This document shows positions 2,774 through 23,412 of a stretch of DNA of 23,413 bases, one piece after another (position 1 is the stretch's first letter; each line of letters opens with the position of its first letter). A program made the position numbers and the translations under genes. The DNA lies in the IMG/VR virus record IMGVR_UViG_3300050015_000445, positions 1-23,413 of that record, one strand, 5' to 3'. Source of the stretch: a virus. The notes beneath the pieces are model-generated. The model did not search any database. It worked only from the letters and a program-made list of their open reading frames with translations, and had not been told where the DNA came from.

Positions 2774-4609
2774 ATGGCAGGATTTTTGCTAAAAAGCATA
2801 GACAATAAAAAATCATATTCGTTAATGGATAACATACAACGAAATATCAGATACTTTTCGGTATTTGGCACAAACTTTGATGAGTCTGCGATAAAACAAT
2901 CAAAATCGATAGGTGTTAACGAGGTAGAGGATGATAACCTTTACAGTCCGATGTACGGATTACAAAATGCTCAAGGTCACGAACTTAATAAGAATGAATT
3001 CATAGCGTTCTTTGATAGACAATATGCAACAAGACGAGAATTTCTTAGAAGATTTTCATTAAATGTTGAGATTGAACAGATAGTTGAGATTATATCAGAT
3101 GAAACTGTCATATATGATGAGAATAATTTCTTTGCATATCCAAATACTCAAAATTTAAAATCCTTATTAAAGGCAGAAAAGGCCAAGGAAATAGTAGATG
3201 ATTTAAATGAATCGTTTAAATCAGTTTATTATAAATTCGGTTTCAACAATGGTCACGATGCATGGCATTATGTCAAAAAATTATTGATTGATGGCTTCCT
3301 GTCATTTGAAATAATATATGATGGCGAAGGTTCTGATGATGCCAAAAGTATAATTGGTTTTAAGGAAATAGATGCAACAACGCTTGAACCTGAAATTCGT
3401 GTAGACGAACAGGAACGCGAATATCGTGTATGGATACAGTTTAGAGGTGACGCAAAGAAGGAACGCGTCATGTTAGATGGTAACTTAATATACATATCTT
3501 GGGCGAGAGGAAATTTCATATCTAGACTTTCATATGTAGAAAGGTTGGTACGTTCATTCAATATGTTAAGGACTATGGAAAATAGCCGTATTATATGGAA
3601 CGTTATAAATGCTCAACAGAGGGTACAGATAGAAGTTCCGATTGGAACCCAATCGGAAGCAAAATCTCGCACTAGGTTATCACAATTGAGAGCTATGTAT
3701 AAGGAAGATGTTACTATAGATGAAAATAGTGCCGAATTATCTTTTAACGGTCAACCAAACTTTTCATTTTTTAAGACATATATAACTCCAACAAAAGGTG
3801 GCGAAACTACAAAGATATCTACTATAGAAAATAAAGGTTACGATCTTTCTGATACGAAGTCATTACAGTATTTCTATAATAGATTCATGCTTGAAACAAA
3901 GGTTCCATCTAATAGATTTTCTGGTGGAGCTGAAGGTAAGACTGATTCCGCATGGGGAGCTGGAGGAGAATCTATTTTAAGAGAGGAAATGAGATTTTCA
4001 TATTTTATAAATCGTATTCGTTCGATATTTCAGGAAATATTGTTGAAACCTACATGGATACAGTTTTGTCTTAAACATCCGAATTTTGTAGGTGACCAAA
4101 CGCTTAAAGGTTCAATAGGTCTTGAGTTTATAGAGGAAAATTTATTTACAACGGCAAAGAAACGTGAGATTGCTAAGAAAGGAGCCGATACAGTCACCGC
4201 TTTGATGGGTGTAAAGGAAGATTATGTAGATGCAACAGGAGCCATCACACCGGTATCATATTTTGATCCTAAATTTTTGGTTGAGAAATATATGGATTTC
4301 ACAGAGGATGATGTAAAATTGAATGTGAAATATAAGACTGAAAGAAGAAAGGAAATTGCAAGATTACAAGCAGTTGCAAGAAGGTTAGAGGCACAAAATG
4401 GTGGTGCCGGTGGAGCAGGTGCAGGTGGTGGAGACTTTGGCGGAGGATCTGACTTTGGCGGAGGATCTGACTTTGGCGGAGGATCTGACTTTGGCGGAGG
4501 ATCTGACTTTGGCGGAGGCGGTCCCGAGAATTTTGGAGGTGAAGAACCACCTCCTGAAACTGAGGAACCACCAACAGAGGAAACTACACCCGAGGAACCG
4601 ATAGTTTAG
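2774..4609 (+). CDS. Portal vertex protein, T4 gp20-like
   Basis: The 611-aa protein fits the T4-type portal, the dodecamer through which DNA enters the head. Typical features are the N-terminal region with RREFLRRFS and IVEIISDETVIYD (about 80-120, the helical 'all peptides/ISDEAVV' block of portals), the mixed strand region with IGFKEIDATTLEPEIRVDE (about 196-214), the WARGNF-SRLSYVERLVRSFNMLRTMENS block (about 244-272), and the SLQYFYNRFMLETKVPSNRF block (about 365-384) followed by helices with MRFSYFINRIRSIFQEILLKP. It is longer than T4 gp20 (524 aa), mainly because of a low-complexity C-terminal tail from about residue 540: G/A-rich, a DFGGGS tandem repeat, then a P/E/T-rich acidic end. 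The gene stops with TAG at 4607. It is followed by a charged core-like protein, as gp20 is followed by gp67 in T4. Confidence 0.85.
   Translation: MAGFLLKSIDNKKSYSLMDNIQRNIRYFSVFGTNFDESAIKQSKSIGVNEVEDDNLYSPMYGLQNAQGHELNKNEFIAFFDRQYATRREFLRRFSLNVEIEQIVEIISDETVIYDENNFFAYPNTQNLKSLLKAEKAKEIVDDLNESFKSVYYKFGFNNGHDAWHYVKKLLIDGFLSFEIIYDGEGSDDAKSIIGFKEIDATTLEPEIRVDEQEREYRVWIQFRGDAKKERVMLDGNLIYISWARGNFISRLSYVERLVRSFNMLRTMENSRIIWNVINAQQRVQIEVPIGTQSEAKSRTRLSQLRAMYKEDVTIDENSAELSFNGQPNFSFFKTYITPTKGGETTKISTIENKGYDLSDTKSLQYFYNRFMLETKVPSNRFSGGAEGKTDSAWGAGGESILREEMRFSYFINRIRSIFQEILLKPTWIQFCLKHPNFVGDQTLKGSIGLEFIEENLFTTAKKREIAKKGADTVTALMGVKEDYVDATGAITPVSYFDPKFLVEKYMDFTEDDVKLNVKYKTERRKEIARLQAVARRLEAQNGGAGGAGAGGGDFGGGSDFGGGSDFGGGSDFGGGSDFGGGGPENFGGEEPPPETEEPPTEETTPEEPIV
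4433..4522 (+). repeat. In-frame 18-bp tandem repeat in portal tail
   Basis: Four perfect 18-bp copies of GACTTTGGCGGAGGATCT (4433-4504) are followed by one degenerate copy (4505-4522). The translation is (DFGGGS)4-DFGGGG. The period is a multiple of three, so copy-number change would keep the portal in frame. There are no spacers, so it is not a CRISPR array. Confidence 0.95.
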
Positions 4610-6545: not shown

Positions 6546-7172
6546 ATGTACAAAAAAGGCAAATCAATACAGTCTCTTGCATTAGACTATATTGAGAACA
6601 AAAATAATATCACGTTCTCAGCATTAATCAAGAGACTTACACCAGGATTACGAACCTTCACATATAAATTTATCCAAGATAATGATCTAATCAAGGAAGT
6701 TTTAGAACAAACATTCATTGCATTATGGGAAAAGATAGATCAATACAATAACGATTTTAATTTTTCAACTTGGACTTATGCAATCGCAAGAAATGAAGCA
6801 TTGGCTTTATTAAGACACAAAAAGAAAAACGTATCACACGATAAATTAACCGAGGAAAGATCGATGGTACTTGCTAATTGTTCACCGATATTCAATATGG
6901 ACATTGAATTTGTCGGACCATCAGGAGATAACCTGGTACAAACATTATATGATGTATCTCTAAAGGCGATAGAAAAGATGGATGAACCATATAGAACAGT
7001 CTTGTATGAAAGGGAGGTTAACCAAAAACAACTCCACATCATCGCAGAAGAATTGGATTGGAATCTAAATACTGTCAAGACTCGTTTAACAAAGGCAAGA
7101 AAATATGTGGCCGATGTTATTAAAAAAGAACACCCCGAACTTGTAGACGCATACATAGAGTTAGCATTATGA
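6546..7172 (+). CDS. ECF-type RNA polymerase sigma factor
   Basis: The 208-aa protein has the two-domain layout of extracytoplasmic-function sigma factors. Region 2 covers about residues 22-92: LIKRLTPGLRTFTYKFIQDN, then DLIKEVLEQTFIALWEKIDQ and FSTWTYAIARNEALALLRHKKK, the core-binding and -10-reading helices. Region 4 covers about 140-195: LKAIEKMDEPYRTVLYERE, then IIAEELDWNLNTVKTRLTKARK, the helix-turn-helix that reads the -35 element. A polar linker of about 45 residues separates them. It starts 38 bases after a terminator and its stop overlaps the start of a membrane protein (ATGA). With the gp55-like factor, this gives the phage two sigma factors of different families. The start used is the first ATG, directly after a run of seven Ts. 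Confidence 0.85.
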   Translation: MYKKGKSIQSLALDYIENKNNITFSALIKRLTPGLRTFTYKFIQDNDLIKEVLEQTFIALWEKIDQYNNDFNFSTWTYAIARNEALALLRHKKKNVSHDKLTEERSMVLANCSPIFNMDIEFVGPSGDNLVQTLYDVSLKAIEKMDEPYRTVLYEREVNQKQLHIIAEELDWNLNTVKTRLTKARKYVADVIKKEHPELVDAYIELAL

Positions 7173-9683: not shown

Positions 9684-10340
9684 ATGCATAAAAGTAAAAT
9701 ACTTTATTGGTCTTTGATAGTTACATTTGCTATTTTATATGCTTGTACTGGTTTTGTAAGTTTTTATCATAGTATAAGTTTTTTTAGTTTAGCAAATCCT
9801 GGGTGGCTTGCAATCATCCTTTCGTTGGTATTTGAGATAGGACAAGCATCTGTTTTGTTTTCTATAATGCTGACGAAAAATAAGAATAACTTTCTTGCGT
9901 GGGCGGTGATGATAATACTTACAAGCTTACAGGTTATTGGTAATATTTTTAGTTCATTTAAATTCATATCCGAATCGTCAAATGTAGATTATCAATATTT
10001 TCAAAAATCAATACTATTCTGGGTTGATGCGGATCCTGAAATGTTTAAAGTTATAATTGCAGCAATAGTTGGCGGTATATTACCTTTGATAGCTTTATCA
10101 ATGACGGCGCTGGTTGCAGAGAACATAAAGATGAAGGATGAGGAAGATAGGATAGTTCCAGATATTGTTCAACCTGTTAAAAATATTGAGGAAAAAGAAT
10201 CACCAGCAGTTAATAATCCAGAAAAACCGGTCGAGGATATTATTGCAGCAAACGAGGAAATTGTAGACGATTTCTCACCAGATGATGTTGATGATGCCTT
10301 TATAAAAAATCCCGAAGATATCGAACCACCAAAAAACTAA
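9684..10340 (+). CDS. Four-span membrane protein ending at a -1 frameshift site
   Basis: The 218-aa zero-frame product has four predicted spans: ILYWSLIVTFAILYACTGFVSF (about 6-27), GWLAIILSLVFEIGQASVLFS (about 40-60), FLAWAVMIILTSLQVIGNIF (about 70-89) and VIIAAIVGGILPLIALSMTALV (about 123-144). An acidic, proline-containing cytosolic tail follows (about 145-218). The last sense codons are CCA AAA AAC followed by TAA. The A AAA AAC heptamer and the hairpin just after the stop are a classical -1 frameshift signal leading into a 103-codon extension. No family is recognised. The zero-frame and frameshift products would differ only in the soluble tail, so two forms of the same membrane protein would be made in a fixed ratio. 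Confidence 0.78.
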   Translation: MHKSKILYWSLIVTFAILYACTGFVSFYHSISFFSLANPGWLAIILSLVFEIGQASVLFSIMLTKNKNNFLAWAVMIILTSLQVIGNIFSSFKFISESSNVDYQYFQKSILFWVDADPEMFKVIIAAIVGGILPLIALSMTALVAENIKMKDEEDRIVPDIVQPVKNIEEKESPAVNNPEKPVEDIIAANEEIVDDFSPDDVDDAFIKNPEDIEPPKN

Positions 10341-10378
10341 TAGGGGCGGTTACCGATGATCAGAAAGATAGCCGCCCC
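10331..10378 (+). promoter_or_regulatory. Programmed -1 ribosomal frameshift signal
   Basis: The slippery heptamer A AAA AAC (10331-10337) is in the correct X XXY YYZ phase relative to the zero frame. A 5-nt spacer (TAATA, containing the zero-frame stop) follows. The stem is GGGGCGGTTA (10343-10352) with TAGCCGCCCC (10369-10378): ten pairs, one of them G-U, with a 16-nt loop. This GC-rich stem is exceptional in such AT-rich DNA. The hairpin could also be read as a terminator, but no U-run follows and the next frame is open. Confidence 0.78.
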
Positions 10379-10648
10379 GTTTCAATAGAAGATCTTGTAA
10401 ACGAAGCTGAGATAGAATATGGTTTAAAACCATTCAATGAGCATGAGATAACGTTTGATGAACTATTAGGAGAAGTTGAAGATTATCTTAAAACCGAGGA
10501 TCAGGTTTCACCGACAACACACAGTGACACCAAACATATAACTAATGATGGATACGCAAGTACCATAGTTGATGGTAAGGAAATTCTTGATGAAATGTCA
10601 CATGGCCCTACATGTAGCTGTGAAAAATGTGCTTGGATGAGATCCTAA
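10337..10648 (+). CDS. -1 frame extension of the membrane protein
   Basis: After the slip, the frame reads 103 codons (LIGAVTDDQKDSRPVSIEDL, continuing to a Cys-rich end, TCSCEKCAWMRS) and stops with TAA at 10646. The upstream frame has no usable start: the only ATG codons lie in the last 20 codons. The composition is protein-like, acidic and soluble. The fusion with the zero-frame part would be 321 aa. Its CxC-x2-C cluster could bind metal, though this is only a pattern. An alternative is a single-base deletion in the A6 run, by mutation or sequencing error, in which case the gene is simply a 321-aa protein. Either way this region is coding. Confidence 0.75.
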   Translation, partial: LIGAVTDDQKDSRPVSIEDLVNEAEIEYGLKPFNEHEITFDELLGEVEDYLKTEDQVSPTTHSDTKHITNDGYASTIVDGKEILDEMSHGPTCSCEKCAWMRS

Positions 10649-11864: not shown

Positions 11865-12367
11865 GAATTAGTTATGTTTCTTAATTCTTTTCGTTGTTCA
11901 TCACTAAGTAAAGTAAATATACAATATAACGAACCTCCTACATGTAATGGAGCAAATTCAATTGTGTCAATTTGATTATTTCTACATATATAATCATCGC
12001 CAACATAAACAGGACCGTATTCTAAAGATTTTAAACTATTTATACTACAATTAAATTCATACTCTACATATGTAGGACAACCACGTAAAGATTTTAGATT
12101 ACATCCTGAACAATCAAAGGATCCATGAACCTCTCCGAATTGGATATAAGATGGAAATTCTCCTAAATTATAATCTCCTCTAAAATCAATATTACTTCTT
12201 ACATCAATTACAAAATTATTATTTATGATATAATCCCTTATCTGATAACTTTCTAACCACTTTTTTATCTAATCAATTTTACCTACACCCCCCATTGATG
12301 TTAATTTATTATCCCCACCTCTAGCGAATGTTTGTTCAATACTTTCTTTAACTAATTTATGATTCAT
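11852..12367 (-). pseudogene. LRR-family gene with an internal amber stop
   Basis: The reverse strand reads MNHKLVKESIEQTFARGG, then DNKLTSMGGVGKID, followed by TAG at codon 33. The same frame then continues IKKWLESYQIRDYIINNN and three LRRs (SLRGCPTYVEYEFNCSIN, SLEYGPVYVGDDYICRNN and a third) to a second TAG inside the terminator. In the neighbouring paralogue the stop position is leucine (GKIDLIKKWLE), so TTG to TAG is the simplest change. There is also one extra glycine codon in a G-run just before GVGK. The rest is well preserved, so decay is recent or the stop is suppressed. The putative start overlaps the end of the upstream LRR gene by 11 bases. Confidence 0.82.
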
Positions 12368-12941
12368 ATTCTACAATATCACCTTTTATTATTTTTCTAT
12401 TCATCAAATTTTTAATTTCGTCCCAGTCATAAAGATTTTTATAACACACAAGGTTTCCACCAACAATAGTGTTTAAAGTTTCAAAAGATTTTAAATTATT
12501 TCTACTACAATTAAAGGTACTACCGACAGATTTCGGAGATCCATCTAAAGATGTTAGAGAATTTCTTGCACAAAAATATCTTTTCTCAACTATTATAGGA
12601 CTATATTCTAAAGAATTTAATTTATTCATTGAACAAACAAAATCTTCACCTACATACAATGGACAACCTCTCAAAGAAGTAAAATCATTTATCGCAATGT
12701 TAAAATCACCACCAACCTCATTAAATTGTATATAATCTGGAAAATTAGAAAGATGTCTATTAAATAAATTAACATCTCCATTAACGTTAATAGTTAGATC
12801 ATCATTTATATTATACCCAGATACACGTTTTTCTTCTAACCATTTTTTGATTAAATCAATTTTTCCAACACCTATTGATGTCAACTTATCTTCACCTCCA
12901 CGGGTGAACTTATGTTCTATATTTTCGTTGATCAATTTCAT
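12357..12941 (-). CDS. Single-module LRR protein
   Basis: The 194-aa protein starts MKLINENIEHKFTRGGEDKL and has the full family header: SIGVGKIDLIKKWLEEKR, then YNINDDLTINVNGDVNL and FPDYIQF. Four or five 21-residue repeats follow (SLRGCPLYVGEDFVCSMN, SLEYSPIIVEKRYFCARN, SLDGSPKSVGSTFNCSRN, then a degenerate one), and a short polar end. The LINE-N at residues 3-7 is the candidate processing site of the family. It starts 2 bases after the stop of the tape-measure-like gene, so it is probably co-transcribed with it, and it overlaps the start of the decayed copy. Antisense ORFs over it are shadows. Confidence 0.85.
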   Translation of the reverse strand: MKLINENIEHKFTRGGEDKLTSIGVGKIDLIKKWLEEKRVSGYNINDDLTINVNGDVNLFNRHLSNFPDYIQFNEVGGDFNIAINDFTSLRGCPLYVGEDFVCSMNKLNSLEYSPIIVEKRYFCARNSLTSLDGSPKSVGSTFNCSRNNLKSFETLNTIVGGNLVCYKNLYDWDEIKNLMNRKIIKGDIVEYES

Positions 12942-15766: not shown

Positions 15767-16426
15767 ATGAAATTGATAAACGAATCCATAGCTCATACAT
15801 TTTCAAGGAATGAAACTGATAAAATTTCATCACTAGGTATTGGTAAAATTTCAATGATAAAAAAATGGCTTAAAGAATATGATGATGATTACGACGATAA
15901 TAATTATGATATAACTGATGATTATGTCATAAACACAAAAGGTAGTGTTAATATAAACGAAAAAATAATTGGAGAATTTCCATCATATATACAATTTGGT
16001 GTCATAAGAGGTACTTTTATTTGTTGTGGATGTGGGTTGACATCATTAAGAGGATGTCCAAAAATTGTTGAAAGAACTTTTAGGTGTGCAGATAATGATT
16101 TAAAATCATTAGAATTTTGTCCAATTGAAGTAGGAGATAATTTTACAATAACAAATAATAAATTAACATCATTAAAATATTGTCCTAAAAAAATAAATGG
16201 GGATTTTTTTTGTTCAAAAAACCAATTAACTTCTTTAGGAGATGGTCCCGATAAGGTTGGTGGTGCTTATTTTTGTCGCGAAAATCAAATATTATCATTG
16301 GATGATTATCATTGTGTTGTTCATGATGATTTAAATATAAGATTAAATCCGTTATCTTTAGATAGTGTTAAAAGATTTAGAGAATCTGATCATAATAATA
16401 TAAGAGGAGAAATATTATACATATGA
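15767..16426 (+). CDS. Single-module LRR protein
   Basis: The 219-aa protein starts MKLINESIAHTFSRNETDKI with SLGIGKISMIKKWLKEY, then an unusual D/N/Y-rich insert (DDDYDDNNYDITDDY) before the strand segment, and FPSYIQFGVIRGTFICCG. Five repeats follow, including SLRGCPKIVERTFRCADN, SLEFCPIEVGDNFTITNN and SLKYCPKKINGDFFCSKN. The cysteines are regularly spaced, one per repeat at the strand end. It is the first gene of the plus-strand unit, 42 bases from the divergent tape-measure-like gene. Its stop overlaps the next ATG (ATGA). The INE-S motif sits at residues 4-7. Confidence 0.85.
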   Translation: MKLINESIAHTFSRNETDKISSLGIGKISMIKKWLKEYDDDYDDNNYDITDDYVINTKGSVNINEKIIGEFPSYIQFGVIRGTFICCGCGLTSLRGCPKIVERTFRCADNDLKSLEFCPIEVGDNFTITNNKLTSLKYCPKKINGDFFCSKNQLTSLGDGPDKVGGAYFCRENQILSLDDYHCVVHDDLNIRLNPLSLDSVKRFRESDHNNIRGEILYI

Positions 16427-17157
16427 AGATAGTAAAGGAACATATATACGAATCATTTAAACAAGGAGATGACAAACTTTCATCTTTGGGGTTGGGTAAA
16501 AAATATTTGATTGAAAAATGGTTAGCTGAATTTAATATAAAGGATTACTACATAAACCGTGATTTTTCAATTGATGCATATGGAGAAGTTATTTTAGCGT
16601 ATAGAGAATTAACTGAACTGCCAAGTTACATTCAATTTAATAAGATTGATAGAAAAACATCATCACAACAAGTAGGCTTTTCTGTTGCTCATACTAAGTT
16701 ATCATCTTTAAGAGGGTGTCCAAAAGAGGTGATGGGAACATTTGATTGCAGCAACAATAATTTAAAATCTTTAAAATTCGGACCTGAATATGTCTGGGGA
16801 ACATATTTTTGTGAACATAACCAGATAGAAACTCTTGAAGGCTGTCCAAAATATATAGGTAGAAATTTTCACGCAGAACATAATAAATTAACAACGTTAG
16901 AATATGGCCCTGTTTCTGTTGGTGGATCTTATTTTTGTTACGATAATTCCTTAATTACATTAAAAGGATCGCCTCTTATAATTCCTGGAGATTTTAATTG
17001 TAAAAATAATATAAATCTTGATTCTTTAGAAGGTGCGCCCAAAGAAATACACGGAGAATTGGTGATAGAACTTACAAAATTATCAGAATTATCTGACAAG
17101 GAAATCAGGAATCAAATAAAAATCACCAGAAAATATACGCATGAAAATCATAAATGA
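16423..17157 (+). CDS. Single-module LRR protein
   Basis: The 244-aa protein starts MKIVKEHIYESFKQGDDKL with SLGLGKKYLIEKWLAEF, then YINRDFSIDAYGEVILAY and LPSYIQF. An insertion (NKIDRKTSSQQVGFSVAHTK) lengthens the first strand before the canonical SLRGCPKEVMGTFDCSNN repeat. Five or six repeats follow, ending with SLEGAPKEIHGELVIEL. The C-terminus is a polar helix. VKE-H (4-7) is the candidate processing site. It overlaps both neighbours: by 4 bases at its start and by 17 bases at its end. Confidence 0.85.
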   Translation: MKIVKEHIYESFKQGDDKLSSLGLGKKYLIEKWLAEFNIKDYYINRDFSIDAYGEVILAYRELTELPSYIQFNKIDRKTSSQQVGFSVAHTKLSSLRGCPKEVMGTFDCSNNNLKSLKFGPEYVWGTYFCEHNQIETLEGCPKYIGRNFHAEHNKLTTLEYGPVSVGGSYFCYDNSLITLKGSPLIIPGDFNCKNNINLDSLEGAPKEIHGELVIELTKLSELSDKEIRNQIKITRKYTHENHK

Positions 17158-18943
17158 ACATATTGAACATTTCACAAGGGGAAGTGAAAATAAATTGGAT
17201 ACGTTAGGTATAGGAAAACGCAAGGCTATTGAATTTTGGATGGATGAACATGGCTTTGGTGAGGAGAATTACACAATCCAAGATGACCTTTCTATTCTTT
17301 TAGATTTCAAATATATGTCCATATGGGATTTTATTGAGTATATAGAGGCCCCAAATGAACCTATTCCTAGTTTTATAAAATTTAATTATTCACCGGATTC
17401 GTTAATGTTTATTTCGTCAATCAATCATAATCTTAAAGATTTTAAATATTCTTTGGAACATGGCGCAGAGATCTATGATTTAATTATGGATAATATGATG
17501 GGCAATAAATTTTACGAAGGTATTAAATATTTATTAAAAAAATATAACAAGGAGGAATTGCCATTAGGATATTACAATAGGTTAAAAGATTATTTAAAAA
17601 TAAGTAACATATCTGAATCATTTACCAGAGATTCTAATAATAAATTAGAATCAATCGGCGTCGGCAAAAGAAAAATGATTGAAAAATGGTTGGAAAATAA
17701 TGGTTTATCTAATTTTGATTATACCATAAATGATGTTAATAAAATTATACCGAATTTTAATAGTTTGATTTTTACAGATTTTATAAATTTATTAAGGAAA
17801 CATAAACCTCTACCATCATTCATAAAAATACACCTAACAGGTTTTGCTAGATTCTTAACATCTGTTTATATGAAAGACATAGAAGAATTTAAAAAATCTA
17901 TACCGAAAGAAGAGTTAATTGACGAGTTAGTTTTTAATAAAATATTGACGAATAATTTTGTGGATGCAATGAAATATTTAATTGACAATCAAAAAAAATA
18001 TATAATTCCACAAAATTATATTATCAAAATGAAAGATATGTTATCAAAACAAAATATTGACGAATCATTTACTAGGGAGTCAAAGGATAAACTTACAATC
18101 ATGGGTATCGGAAAGATAAATTTAATTAAAACTTGGTTAGAAAGATGTGGAATAGAAAAATATATAATAAATAATGATTTAACAATAACTGTTAATGGTA
18201 ATGTCAATCTTGATTCCTTTAAGTTTGGTAATTTTCCAGATTATATACAATTTAGAGATGTATATGGATGGTTTGATATAAATAGTGACAAGATGACATC
18301 ACTAAGAGGATGTCCATCATATGTCCAAGATTTTTTTTCATGTTCAAATAATTACTTAGAATCTCTTGATTTTGCACCTAAAAATATAAATGGCTCATTT
18401 TATTGTGCTTATAATTATAAAATATCAAAAGATGATATAGAAGAATATTTACAAAAGATTAATCATTCTGAAAAAAAAGTGTTTGAAGCCTTTATAAAAG
18501 GAAATGATAAATTAGCAACACTTGGTGTAGGCAAACCAGGAATGATAACGAATTGGTTGAGAGAAAGAGGAGCGGAACAAGTAAAGATACATGATGATGG
18601 AACTATTGATGTCAAATGTAAAAATATGTGGTTATATCCTTTTGATCCTGGTAACCCAACCGATGGTAATCTTCCCGATTATATTAAATTTGGAAAAATT
18701 GATGGTTCATTTTTTTGTGAGAATTCTGGATTAACTTCTCTTAAAGGATTTCCGTATGAAATAGACGGTGATTTTGATATACAAGATAATGAGAAATTAA
18801 GATCATTAAAAGGTCTTCCGAAAAAGATAAATGGAGAATTCTATTGCGGAAATATAGATATGTCTAGAACAGAAATAGACAAATATATGTTTGATAATAA
18901 AATAGAAGTCACAGGAGATATTTACTATACACACATAAATTAA
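17141..18943 (+). CDS. Four-module polyprotein with two non-LRR and two LRR modules
   Basis: The 600-aa protein has four headers: near 1 (INEHIEHFTRGSENKLDTLG), 157 (ISESFTRDSNNKL), 306 (IDESFTRESKDKL) and 447 (VFEAFIKGNDKLATLGVGK). Modules 3 and 4 carry the usual INDD-like strand and LRRs (SLRGCPSYVQDFFSCSNN; SLKGFPYEIDGDFDIQDN). Modules 1 and 2 share the header and a P-S-F-I-K-F/I segment matching P-x-Y-I-Q-F. In place of LRRs they have an alpha-helical region with DFKYSLEHGAEIYDLIMDN and KFYEGIKYLLKKYNKEELP (module 1), and a related one in module 2. This helical payload looks ankyrin-like in spacing but lacks the ankyrin consensus. An (I/V)-x-E precedes each internal header (E159, E308, E449). 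The start overlaps the preceding gene by 17 bases. Confidence 0.85.
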   Translation: MKIINEHIEHFTRGSENKLDTLGIGKRKAIEFWMDEHGFGEENYTIQDDLSILLDFKYMSIWDFIEYIEAPNEPIPSFIKFNYSPDSLMFISSINHNLKDFKYSLEHGAEIYDLIMDNMMGNKFYEGIKYLLKKYNKEELPLGYYNRLKDYLKISNISESFTRDSNNKLESIGVGKRKMIEKWLENNGLSNFDYTINDVNKIIPNFNSLIFTDFINLLRKHKPLPSFIKIHLTGFARFLTSVYMKDIEEFKKSIPKEELIDELVFNKILTNNFVDAMKYLIDNQKKYIIPQNYIIKMKDMLSKQNIDESFTRESKDKLTIMGIGKINLIKTWLERCGIEKYIINNDLTITVNGNVNLDSFKFGNFPDYIQFRDVYGWFDINSDKMTSLRGCPSYVQDFFSCSNNYLESLDFAPKNINGSFYCAYNYKISKDDIEEYLQKINHSEKKVFEAFIKGNDKLATLGVGKPGMITNWLRERGAEQVKIHDDGTIDVKCKNMWLYPFDPGNPTDGNLPDYIKFGKIDGSFFCENSGLTSLKGFPYEIDGDFDIQDNEKLRSLKGLPKKINGEFYCGNIDMSRTEIDKYMFDNKIEVTGDIYYTHIN

Positions 18944-20833: not shown

Positions 20834-20852
20834 TCAACGAAAAGTCCTTTCC
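20823..20852. terminator. Hairpin across abutting convergent stops
   Basis: GGAAAGGA (20823-20830) pairs with TCCTTTCC (20845-20852) across the two TGA stops that share TGATCA (20831-20836). No U-run follows on either strand, so it may slow or stop convergent transcription only partly. Confidence 0.45.
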
Positions 20853-21430
20853 TCCCAATTAAAATGGTACCCCAATTTCTTTGCTTTTTCATATTCACCA
20901 TCAAATAATTCGTTAGGATCAATCACTATATACGCCTTTTTGTTCATTATAGGAAGGTATCTTAAAGAACGTATATATGTCCCCTTTAGATATAAAAGTC
21001 CTCCTATAGTTACAGGTCCATTTTCTAAAGATGATAAAGGATTATTTTCAAAAGAGACATTTTGTTGCACATATTCGGGACAAAATTTTAAAGATTTTAA
21101 TTTATTTCCTTCTACCCAAAGATATCCTTTAATCATCTTTGGAAAACCTCTCAATGTTATTAAATCACAATCACATGCGTCTAAATTACCAGAAATCACA
21201 TTGAATTGTATATACTCTGGAAGCGATCCATGTATTTTAATATGTTGAAAATTTATATTATCATCAATATCTATTGAAAAATCATCATTGATTTCATATT
21301 TTCGTATAAAATGTTCTTCAAGCCAGCTTTTTATCAATGACAACCTGCCAATATTTAGATTTTGTAATTTAGACGAATCCTCAGGAGTCCTAACAAATGC
21401 CTCATCTATGTGTTCTCTTATCAATTTCAT
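20834..21430 (-). CDS. Single-module LRR protein
   Basis: I start this 198-aa protein at the second ATG (21430), not at 21439. That choice gives MKLIREHIDEAFVRT, which matches its paralogues, and an ATGA overlap with the upstream stop. The header is complete (KLQNLNIGRLSLIKSWLEEH, then YEINDDFSIDIDDNINF and LPEYIQF). Three or four repeats follow (TLRGFPKMIKGYLWVEGN, SLKFCPEYVQQNVSFENN, SLENGPVTIGGLLYLKGT), poorer in cysteine than in other copies, and a basic C-terminus. IRE-H (4-7) is the candidate processing site. It ends base-to-base against the glycosyltransferase gene. Confidence 0.85.
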   Translation of the reverse strand: MKLIREHIDEAFVRTPEDSSKLQNLNIGRLSLIKSWLEEHFIRKYEINDDFSIDIDDNINFQHIKIHGSLPEYIQFNVISGNLDACDCDLITLRGFPKMIKGYLWVEGNKLKSLKFCPEYVQQNVSFENNPLSSLENGPVTIGGLLYLKGTYIRSLRYLPIMNKKAYIVIDPNELFDGEYEKAKKLGYHFNWEERTFR

Positions 21431-23412
21431 ACGCTCCATATTCCTTTCAAGATAAATTCATATTGAGGATTTTTTTCTTGTGCTATATCTGTCATAGGTT
21501 TGATAACATCTGTCACATATTGTTCTGATGTTTTGTCTTCGAGATCATAGCTTTCAGAAAGATAGAATTTGTTTGTCTTTCCGTATTGCATCCAACATAC
21601 AACATTTTCATATGCTGAATGTTTTCCGTCCCATTCTATAGGGTAGGAAACCAATTCATACTTAATAATAGCATCAATTATATCTCCGTGTATTATATTC
21701 AATGAATCTGCAATGAAAAAATTACCATCTTTATCTGTGACTGCTCTGCTCATTATAGGAAATCTTTTGATTGAAGGAGGGTTCATGTATAGATCTCCTC
21801 CATCTAGTTTTTTATTATATGAAGAAACCTTTCCTATAAGAACTTCATTTAATGATTCATATAAACCATCAAGTTTCTTATTATCTTCTATTGTTTGTTT
21901 AGAATCATTATATCTATCAACATATCTCATATTTTCTCGTGGAACTCCCGTTCTTTCACAGTATTTTAATATTTCCCTTTCAGATAATCGGACATTGCCA
22001 TAAACGAATATTCCAGTTCTAAGAATGTTGGGTGCAAAATCTAAATTTATCAGATCATTGTCTTCACAATAGAAATTACCATTTATGTGGCGCGGGCAAC
22101 CTCTCAGTGTTGTCATTTTGTTTCCAGTTATAGACATCCAATTGTCCATATCTGCAAATTGAATATATTCAGGAAAATTACCATCGAAACGAAAATCTTT
22201 ATTTATACTCTGATCTGTAAATATTTCTAAATTATCTTTTATTGTACAAGTTTTATCTAAATCATTTTTTTCAAGCCATTTTTGGATTAATTGCCTTTTC
22301 CCAATTCCTAAATTTACTAATTTATTATCGCTTTTTGTAAAAAATTCATTTACTTTATTATATTTCGTATTATCTTCCTTTATTAAATCTGTATCATCTT
22401 CACCATCAACATATCTCATATTTTTACGTGGGAACGAATATTTTTTGCAATATTTTAATAATTCATCCTCAGATATTTCATTTCCACCATAATAAAATGA
22501 TGATGTTTTATTTAATATTTCTGGGGCAAATTCCAAAGATGTTAGTTTATTATTTGCGCAATAAAATGATTCATAAATTTTTGGAGGACATCCCCTTAAA
22601 GATGTCATACCATTTCCTTCTATAGAAAACCATCTTGGCCCATTTGCAAAGCGAATAAAATCTGGAAAATTACCATTAAGCTTAAAATCCCAATTTATAG
22701 CATTATGTGGTTCCAATTCCAATTTATCATTAATATATACATCAAAAAATTCGTGGTCAGATAGCCATTGTTCTATTAACTTTCTTTTTCCTATTCCCAA
22801 TGTATCTAATTTATCATCATTTTTTATAAATGATTCATTTAAATTTAATTGTCTATTTTCGTATTTTTCGAGTTCACTATCATTAACATTCACACTTCGT
22901 CTTATACGCCAACGTTCACAATTAAATTTTTTGCAATATTTTTCAATTGAATATTCGGAAATTTGATTGCCACCATAAATAAGTTTACCTAAATTTTGTA
23001 AATAAGGCGCATAGTCAAGAGATGTTAATTCATTATGATCACAATAGAAATTACCCAAACATATCTTTGGACTACCCTTTAACGTTGTTAACTTGTTTCC
23101 AGACACTGAATAATAAAAAAGTGTCTTATTAAAATTTATATAATTTGGCAAACCATCTGGTAAGTTTTGATCCAAATTAACACCATCATTTACATCTATG
23201 GTGTAATCATCCTTTATTACATAATTTTTTATGTAATGATCATCTAACCATTTTTTTATCAGTTGAGGTTTGCCTATACCTAAATTAACCAACTTATCAT
23301 CACCTTTTACAAAAGATTCGTCTAATTTATTGTATTTCTTATTAATGTTTTTTATTTTATTTGTGTCAGCGTGCTTAATATTGTATCTAAAATCATGTCT
23401 TAAAAAATTGTA
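21427..23412 (-). CDS. LRR polyprotein with distinct C-terminal domain, 5' end outside the window
   Basis: The frame stays open to the window edge, reading a module tail (FLRHDFRYNIKHADTNKI) and then the header LDESFVKGDDKLVNLGIGK; the TTG at 23292 is an internal leucine. Two more headers follow (LNESFIKNDDKLDTLGIGK; VNEFFTKSDNKLVNLGIGK). Each of the three modules has the INDD-like strand, F/L-P-x-x-I-x-F, and two canonical LRRs (e.g. SLRGCPPKIYESFYCANN), then a variant FAPEIL-x(n)-YGGNEIS repeat and a helix (LLKYCKKYSFPRKNMRYVD) absent from the single-module copies. The last 135 residues are a different, non-repeat domain (from about GDLYMNPPSIKRFPIMSRAV to EFILKGIWSV) that I do not recognise. 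Confidence 0.85.
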   Translation of the reverse strand, partial: YNFLRHDFRYNIKHADTNKIKNINKKYNKLDESFVKGDDKLVNLGIGKPQLIKKWLDDHYIKNYVIKDDYTIDVNDGVNLDQNLPDGLPNYINFNKTLFYYSVSGNKLTTLKGSPKICLGNFYCDHNELTSLDYAPYLQNLGKLIYGGNQISEYSIEKYCKKFNCERWRIRRSVNVNDSELEKYENRQLNLNESFIKNDDKLDTLGIGKRKLIEQWLSDHEFFDVYINDKLELEPHNAINWDFKLNGNFPDFIRFANGPRWFSIEGNGMTSLRGCPPKIYESFYCANNKLTSLEFAPEILNKTSSFYYGGNEISEDELLKYCKKYSFPRKNMRYVDGEDDTDLIKEDNTKYNKVNEFFTKSDNKLVNLGIGKRQLIQKWLEKNDLDKTCTIKDNLEIFTDQSINKDFRFDGNFPEYIQFADMDNWMSITGNKMTTLRGCPRHINGNFYCEDNDLINLDFAPNILRTGIFVYGNVRLSEREILKYCERTGVPRENMRYVDRYNDSKQTIEDNKKLDGLYESLNEVLIGKVSSYNKKLDGGDLYMNPPSIKRFPIMSRAVTDKDGNFFIADSLNIIHGDIIDAIIKYELVSYPIEWDGKHSAYENVVCWMQYGKTNKFYLSESYDLEDKTSEQYVTDVIKPMTDIAQEKNPQYEFILKGIWSV

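Follow-up and report, generated by a model that had tools for sequence, protein, structure and literature searches.

A site in a conserved membrane-protein gene of huge phages is predicted, with a probability of about 0.9, to be a true signal for -1 programmed ribosomal frameshifting, which would yield the protein in two forms, one short and one with a tail. It was analysed in the window, the whole stretch of 23,413 nucleotides of IMG/VR record IMGVR_UViG_3300050015_000445. The reading given in the preliminary description, two forms of 218 and about 321 aa made via a -1 shift, is supported by the conserved signal, the covarying stem and the selected tail. According to the proposed mechanism, most ribosomes would stop at TAA 10338, giving the four-span protein of 218 aa; some would be delayed by the hairpin, the two tRNAs on A AAA AAC would re-pair on AAA AAA, and the shifted ribosomes would read 103 further codons, giving the 321-aa form.

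Predicted slip site and extension in the window

The gene, located downstream of the portal gene, starts with ATG at 9684, and its 3' end reads CCA (10329) AAA AAC TAA (10338-10340); the features are listed in Table 1. The four-span membrane protein proposed at first sight is borne out by four TM segments, at about residues 6-24, 31/44-62, 70-88 and 120-138, and by the AF2 model of the homologue L036. Judging by the charge pattern and this model, both termini are probably inside. Searches of Pfam, PHROGs and PDB (Foldseek) gave no function for the four-TM protein or its tail, and the fold search of BFVD matched only uncharacterised phage proteins.

The conserved gene cluster at the homologous loci comprises genes for a sigma factor, a 151-aa protein, an exonuclease, a 184-aa protein and a single-TM protein of about 100 aa, the family of which is found directly upstream of the four-TM gene in 114 of 125 loci. 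The window member of this family, of 95 aa, is likely a functional partner of the four-TM protein. A phage sigma-70-like factor with regions 2 and 4 is encoded at 6546-7172 of the window, and the homologous family occurs near the frameshift gene in 82/125 loci. A perfect 18-bp tandem repeat (4.8 copies) at 4433-4518 corresponds to GDFGGGS-type repeats in the C-terminus of the portal protein. A leucine-rich-repeat-like family (K..LGIGK..LI..WL; LTSLRGCP) has at least seven member genes within 23 kb, distributed over both strands, a strong local expansion.

Table 1. Coordinates of features in the window
Feature	Position	Strand	Basis
Single-TM protein, 95 aa	9388..9675	+	family member just 5' of the gene in 114/125 loci
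0-frame ORF, 218 aa, four-TM membrane protein with acidic cytoplasmic tail	9684..10340	+	TM pattern; about 125 phage loci with homologues
Second in-phase heptamer, A AAA AAT, within the -1 opening, without adjacent strong stem	10304..10310	+	sequence reading
Predicted slippery heptamer, A AAA AAC, in phase with ATG 9684	10331..10337	+	gap-free match to A AAA AAA plus a following G in 19 relatives
Extension read in the -1 frame, 103 codons and stop; motif YASTIVDGKEILDE near residues 73-86	10337..10648	+	codon usage; homology to relatives' tails
0-frame stop TAA, directly 3' of the heptamer	10338..10340	+	sequence reading
5-nt spacer TAATA, length identical in all relatives	10338..10342	+	sequence reading; relatives' alignment
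Putative stimulatory hairpin, 10-bp stem 10343-10352 / 10369-10378, 16-nt loop	10343..10378	+	folding; covariation in relatives
Leucine-rich-repeat-like genes	2-1027, 12357-12941, 15767-16426, 16423-17157, 17141-18943, 20834-21439, 21427-23292	both	

The layout described initially, namely a heptamer in exact phase, an immediate 0-frame stop, a 5-nt spacer and a 10-bp GC-rich stem, was confirmed base by base. The arms GGGGCGGTTA (10343-10352) and TAGCCGCCCC (10369-10378) form 10 bp with one G-U pair. The hairpin after A AAA AAC (-19.3 to -19.6 kcal/mol) is by far the strongest among the 76 in-frame heptamers of window genes, counted as X XXY YYZ with YYY being AAA or TTT, and the next-best one reaches -10.9; the folding z score is -2.6 over the 76-nt stretch, and -3.5 when the 60 downstream nt are taken. 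Of the features by which a -1 programmed ribosomal frameshift signal is recognised, three were found, namely an in-phase X XXY YYZ heptamer, a short spacer with a stable 3' structure, and conservation in homologues together with purifying selection on the -1 frame. The heptamer A AAA AAT at 10304-10310 is a possible minor slip site.

The GC-rich stem directly 3' of a stop codon also fits a transcription terminator, in which case the open -1 frame would be accidental; this is scarcely credible, given the lack of a T-run, the 16-nt loop, the negative terminator scan, and the position of the stem within a conserved coding frame at a constant distance from the heptamer. No family was found by the Rfam scan of the site. 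The use of TAG as a sense codon was rejected, as the portal gene of the window and some neighbour genes of relatives terminate in TAG; readthrough of this codon would add only 4-33 codons.

The -1 frame is open at 10337-10645, that is, for 103 codons, with the stop at 10646-10648, and the predicted fusion product is of about 321 aa. Upstream, this frame is limited by TGA at 10292, with no start codon between there and the tail, and the first ATG, GTG or TTG within the tail is codon 86, in agreement with the earlier claim of a 103-codon frame without a usable start. By the contig's own codon usage, the tail scores 0.24 bits per codon, compared with a mean of 0.31 (minimum 0.085) for true-frame windows and of -0.12 (maximum 0.14) for off-frame ones; open runs reaching 103 codons are rare off frame (2/1,466).

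The window tail aligns to the tails of relatives at its start (IGA) and at YASTIVDGKEILDE, where hhalign gave E 1e-4 over 19 columns, and it shares with them the conserved motif YAS.I.DGVEVVD. Its end, HGPTCSCEKCAWMRS, is peculiar to the window, and the family C-terminal peptide is absent; the C-x-C-x2-C cluster noticed at the tail end is indeed present, but is not conserved in relatives. No relative was found by a simple search of IMG/VR and INPHARED with the extension as the query, homology being visible only via the gene family, and the Pfam search of the tail gave no match. Two helices and one small hairpin were modelled in the tail by AF2 with low confidence.

Conservation of the signal in homologous loci

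The homologue set came from searches with the portal and downstream genes, after which viral and genome contigs were searched by profile; the first search revealed a distant homologue in the 462-kb phage genome LR756500. Homologues of the four-TM protein were found in well over 100 loci (about 125 phage loci). Among named relatives, the nearest by portal are the Lak megaphages of Prevotella (41%), along with other huge phages, and a profile search of the named huge phages Lak-C1, PAU, PTm1 and pT24 gave no homologue.

Nineteen other loci, distinct and from different samples, have the same layout (A AAA AAA, 5-nt spacer, stem) and are assigned together with the window to group I. CCAAAAAACTAATAGGGGC of the window aligns without indels with CCAAAAAAAGCATAGGGGC of relatives; A AAA AAC itself is atypical of the family, in which relatives have A AAA AAA with G as the next base. 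The spacer sequence in group I is mostly GCNTA. The 0-frame stop is located one codon past the heptamer in most loci and 3, 9 or 53 codons past it in others. At L042:4205-4374, the site and the stem are kept, though the 0-frame continues for 53 codons before the stop.

The stem of group I is a covarying RNA structure inside a coding region. Every stem pairs; the 8-nt 5' arms comprise 13 different sequences, each matching its own 3' arm, and pairs 3-7 vary on both sides. Pairing amounts to 150/160, compared with 140 in the best of 100,000 trials with arms permuted between loci, where the 3' arm was taken as the best complement per locus and loci were treated as independent, their kinship being ignored. 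The test is fair as to the choice of arms, because permuted sets receive the identical best-complement choice.

Group I tails contain the invariant GVE..D and frequently end in ..FGIP....WDKI or ..NFDRI. No stops were found in 2,244 codons of the -1 tails, against 209 and 317 in the other two frames, a result partly due to construction, since tails were cut at the first stop. Pairwise dN/dS of the tails is 0.10-0.32, which indicates that the -1 tail is under purifying selection. The preliminary description proposed comparing homologues for conservation of the signal and for low dN/dS in the extension: both expectations held, the heptamer, spacer, stem and -1 tail being kept across divergent homologues with a covarying stem, and dN/dS being low.

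These tails also bear on the suggestion that the extension is a remnant of a decayed gene or a separate gene translated from its own start. An ATG is present near the start of the -1 tail in L044 and L117, but early ATG, GTG or TTG codons are absent from the tails of the window and most relatives, no conserved start codon was found in relatives' tails, the dN/dS values argue against decay, and in-frame fusions of relatives tie the tail to the four-TM protein; a decayed or separate gene is thus highly improbable.

The exact slip site of the window is absent from all other contigs searched, and the sole near-identical contig reaching the four-TM gene stops 66 nt short of it. The site was thus seen in one contig only, and a sequencing or assembly error would make the true sequence seven As in one continuous frame, as the same tail is encoded in L036, L037 and L051. 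An error is nevertheless very unlikely: the equivalent -1 junction, with a 0-frame stop and a covarying stem, occurs in 19 other distinct loci, and a mere error would need no stem. Gene ends that look recoded, with A6 in phase at most 36 nt from the stop and a -1 frame open for at least 18 codons beyond, were found in 28 of 35 near relatives and in just 4 of 150 neighbouring genes of the same loci.

Slippage could also occur in transcription, with RNA polymerase inserting or omitting an A within the run and ribosomes reading the altered mRNAs normally. For the window site, this is unlikely. The window has only six As, few for the polymerase, and group I has seven As with a covarying 3' hairpin; a downstream hairpin is not yet copied when the polymerase would slip and hence has no effect on it. 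These features favour ribosomal slippage in the window and group I, and suggest that ribosomes, not RNA polymerase, slip at the window site.

In the tree, group I loci are widely scattered, and the window adjoins L074 and L075 (support 98/89), its closest relatives by the N-domain, which have no shift and a different tail. Accordingly, the shift state was gained or lost several times.

C-terminal, tandem and unshifted arrangements

Group II includes nine distinct loci, in which the long tail is encoded in the 0-frame and the gene ends after a run of A8-A10 near the C-terminus (the A9 sites). The -1 frame adds 22-28 codons, ending in the conserved GIPxNPGExxNFDRI before the stop. These runs have no obvious 3' stem, which is a typical context of transcriptional slippage, and the sites of the distant group III are likewise located on runs of A7-A11; polymerase slippage may therefore apply at the A9 sites.

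Tandem sites were found in three loci (L048:970-1350; L055:4190-4620; L062:4165-4570), where the group I shift is followed by GVEVVD..KAI, an A9C run with a stop, and a second -1 shift to a frame ending in GIPINPGEHLNFDRI. The products would span all three frames, and the second site is without an evident stem.

In the unshifted L036, L037 and L051, all parts of the tail are encoded in one frame, which indicates that the tail and the N-terminal part belong to one protein. The preliminary description regarded relatives that encode both parts as one continuous frame as speaking against the shift; such relatives do exist, but they are outnumbered by recoded ones and so do not refute frameshifting. 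The C-terminal peptide [FW]D[KR]I at the stop was found in 22 of 29 members of groups I and II and in 7 of 78 unshifted members, most of them distant. A single C-terminal peptide common to all relatives was rejected on the latter count.

Some members of the distant clade have a small -1 tail, ..NPQVRPGVNA, following an A-run, and similar ends are in frame in L132 and L149. Among L144, L132 and L149 (3000-3900), the conserved C-terminus (HPQIMPGVL / NPQVRPGVN) is encoded in frame by some phages, and others need a -1 shift at an A-run for it.

Considered together, the arrangements suggest that a covarying -1 cassette, moving within the gene (mid-gene site with a stem, C-terminal A9, tandem), probably serves this huge-phage clade to regulate a core membrane protein, so that lineages would make nested isoforms, two or three in number, with or without a conserved, putative docking peptide at the C-terminus. 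The homologue set provides comparative material on how frameshift sites move, vanish and reappear, and plain gene calling in these phages loses a conserved tail.

Comparison with known systems and possible role

Frameshifting in phages is known for tail chaperones and for Ig-like extensions of capsid and tail proteins (PMC5009743). The proposal that a membrane protein is a new use holds in so far as the literature search, covering few subscription journals, yielded no report of a frameshift in such a phage membrane protein; its premise that tail chaperones are the well-known phage case is too narrow, as other cases were already known. Conserved phage frameshifting has so far concerned mainly tail chaperones and capsid or tail decorations, and here it is widely kept in a membrane protein of huge phages. 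As far as sequences can tell, the recoding is real and conserved, and the four-TM gene and the tandem arrangement are new for a known mechanism.

Bacterial and phage -1 frameshifting in dnaX and IS elements shares with the window an in-phase X XXY YYZ heptamer, a short spacer, a 3' hairpin and two products (PMC5009743, PMC4066793); here, in contrast, the gene is that of a phage four-TM protein, and the heptamer is mostly A AAA AAA in the family and A AAA AAC in the window. The latter is a weak, low-efficiency motif in E. coli (PMC4066793), which may not be the host of the window phage.

With the tail-assembly chaperones G/GT (PMC5009743), the site shares its location in a structural-gene region of a phage and the C-terminal extension by a -1 shift, and by analogy stoichiometric control by the shift, as with G/GT, is likely. 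G/GT is soluble, and its gene directly precedes that of the tape measure, whereas the present protein has four TM segments, is encoded beside a conserved single-TM protein and neighbours the exonuclease and 184-aa proteins; no match to a chaperone family was found for it. The Ig-like phage extensions are likewise added by a -1 shift in some phages and encoded in frame in others (PMC5009743), but the present tail has no Pfam match, and its AF2 model is mostly of low confidence.

Within the family, the tail is acidic and mostly disordered, with a small beta-hairpin at I.DGVEVVD / GVEVVD (AF2, low confidence). The four-TM protein may act as a platform at the membrane, used in assembly or in a different late step. 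Tentatively, the cytoplasmic tail might dock a phage partner at the membrane, and the shift might set the share of copies bearing the dock, as the analogy with G/GT suggests. Control of a ratio by frameshifting would thereby extend to the phage-membrane interface.

Double -1 shifts are known in MMTV and HTLV (PMC5009743). Their gag-pro-pol region has in common with L048, L055 and L062 two consecutive -1 sites, nested products and the use of three frames, and these loci differ in belonging to DNA phages and in encoding a membrane protein, with no polyprotein and no evident second stem; the tandem sites would represent an MMTV-like layout in DNA phages. Two programmed shifts using three frames were also proposed for the reverse transcriptase of the Quimbyvirus DGR, a different phage gene, for which the portion of the source consulted describes no covarying stem family (PMC8008677). 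The window itself contains one site, followed by a clean end of the tail.
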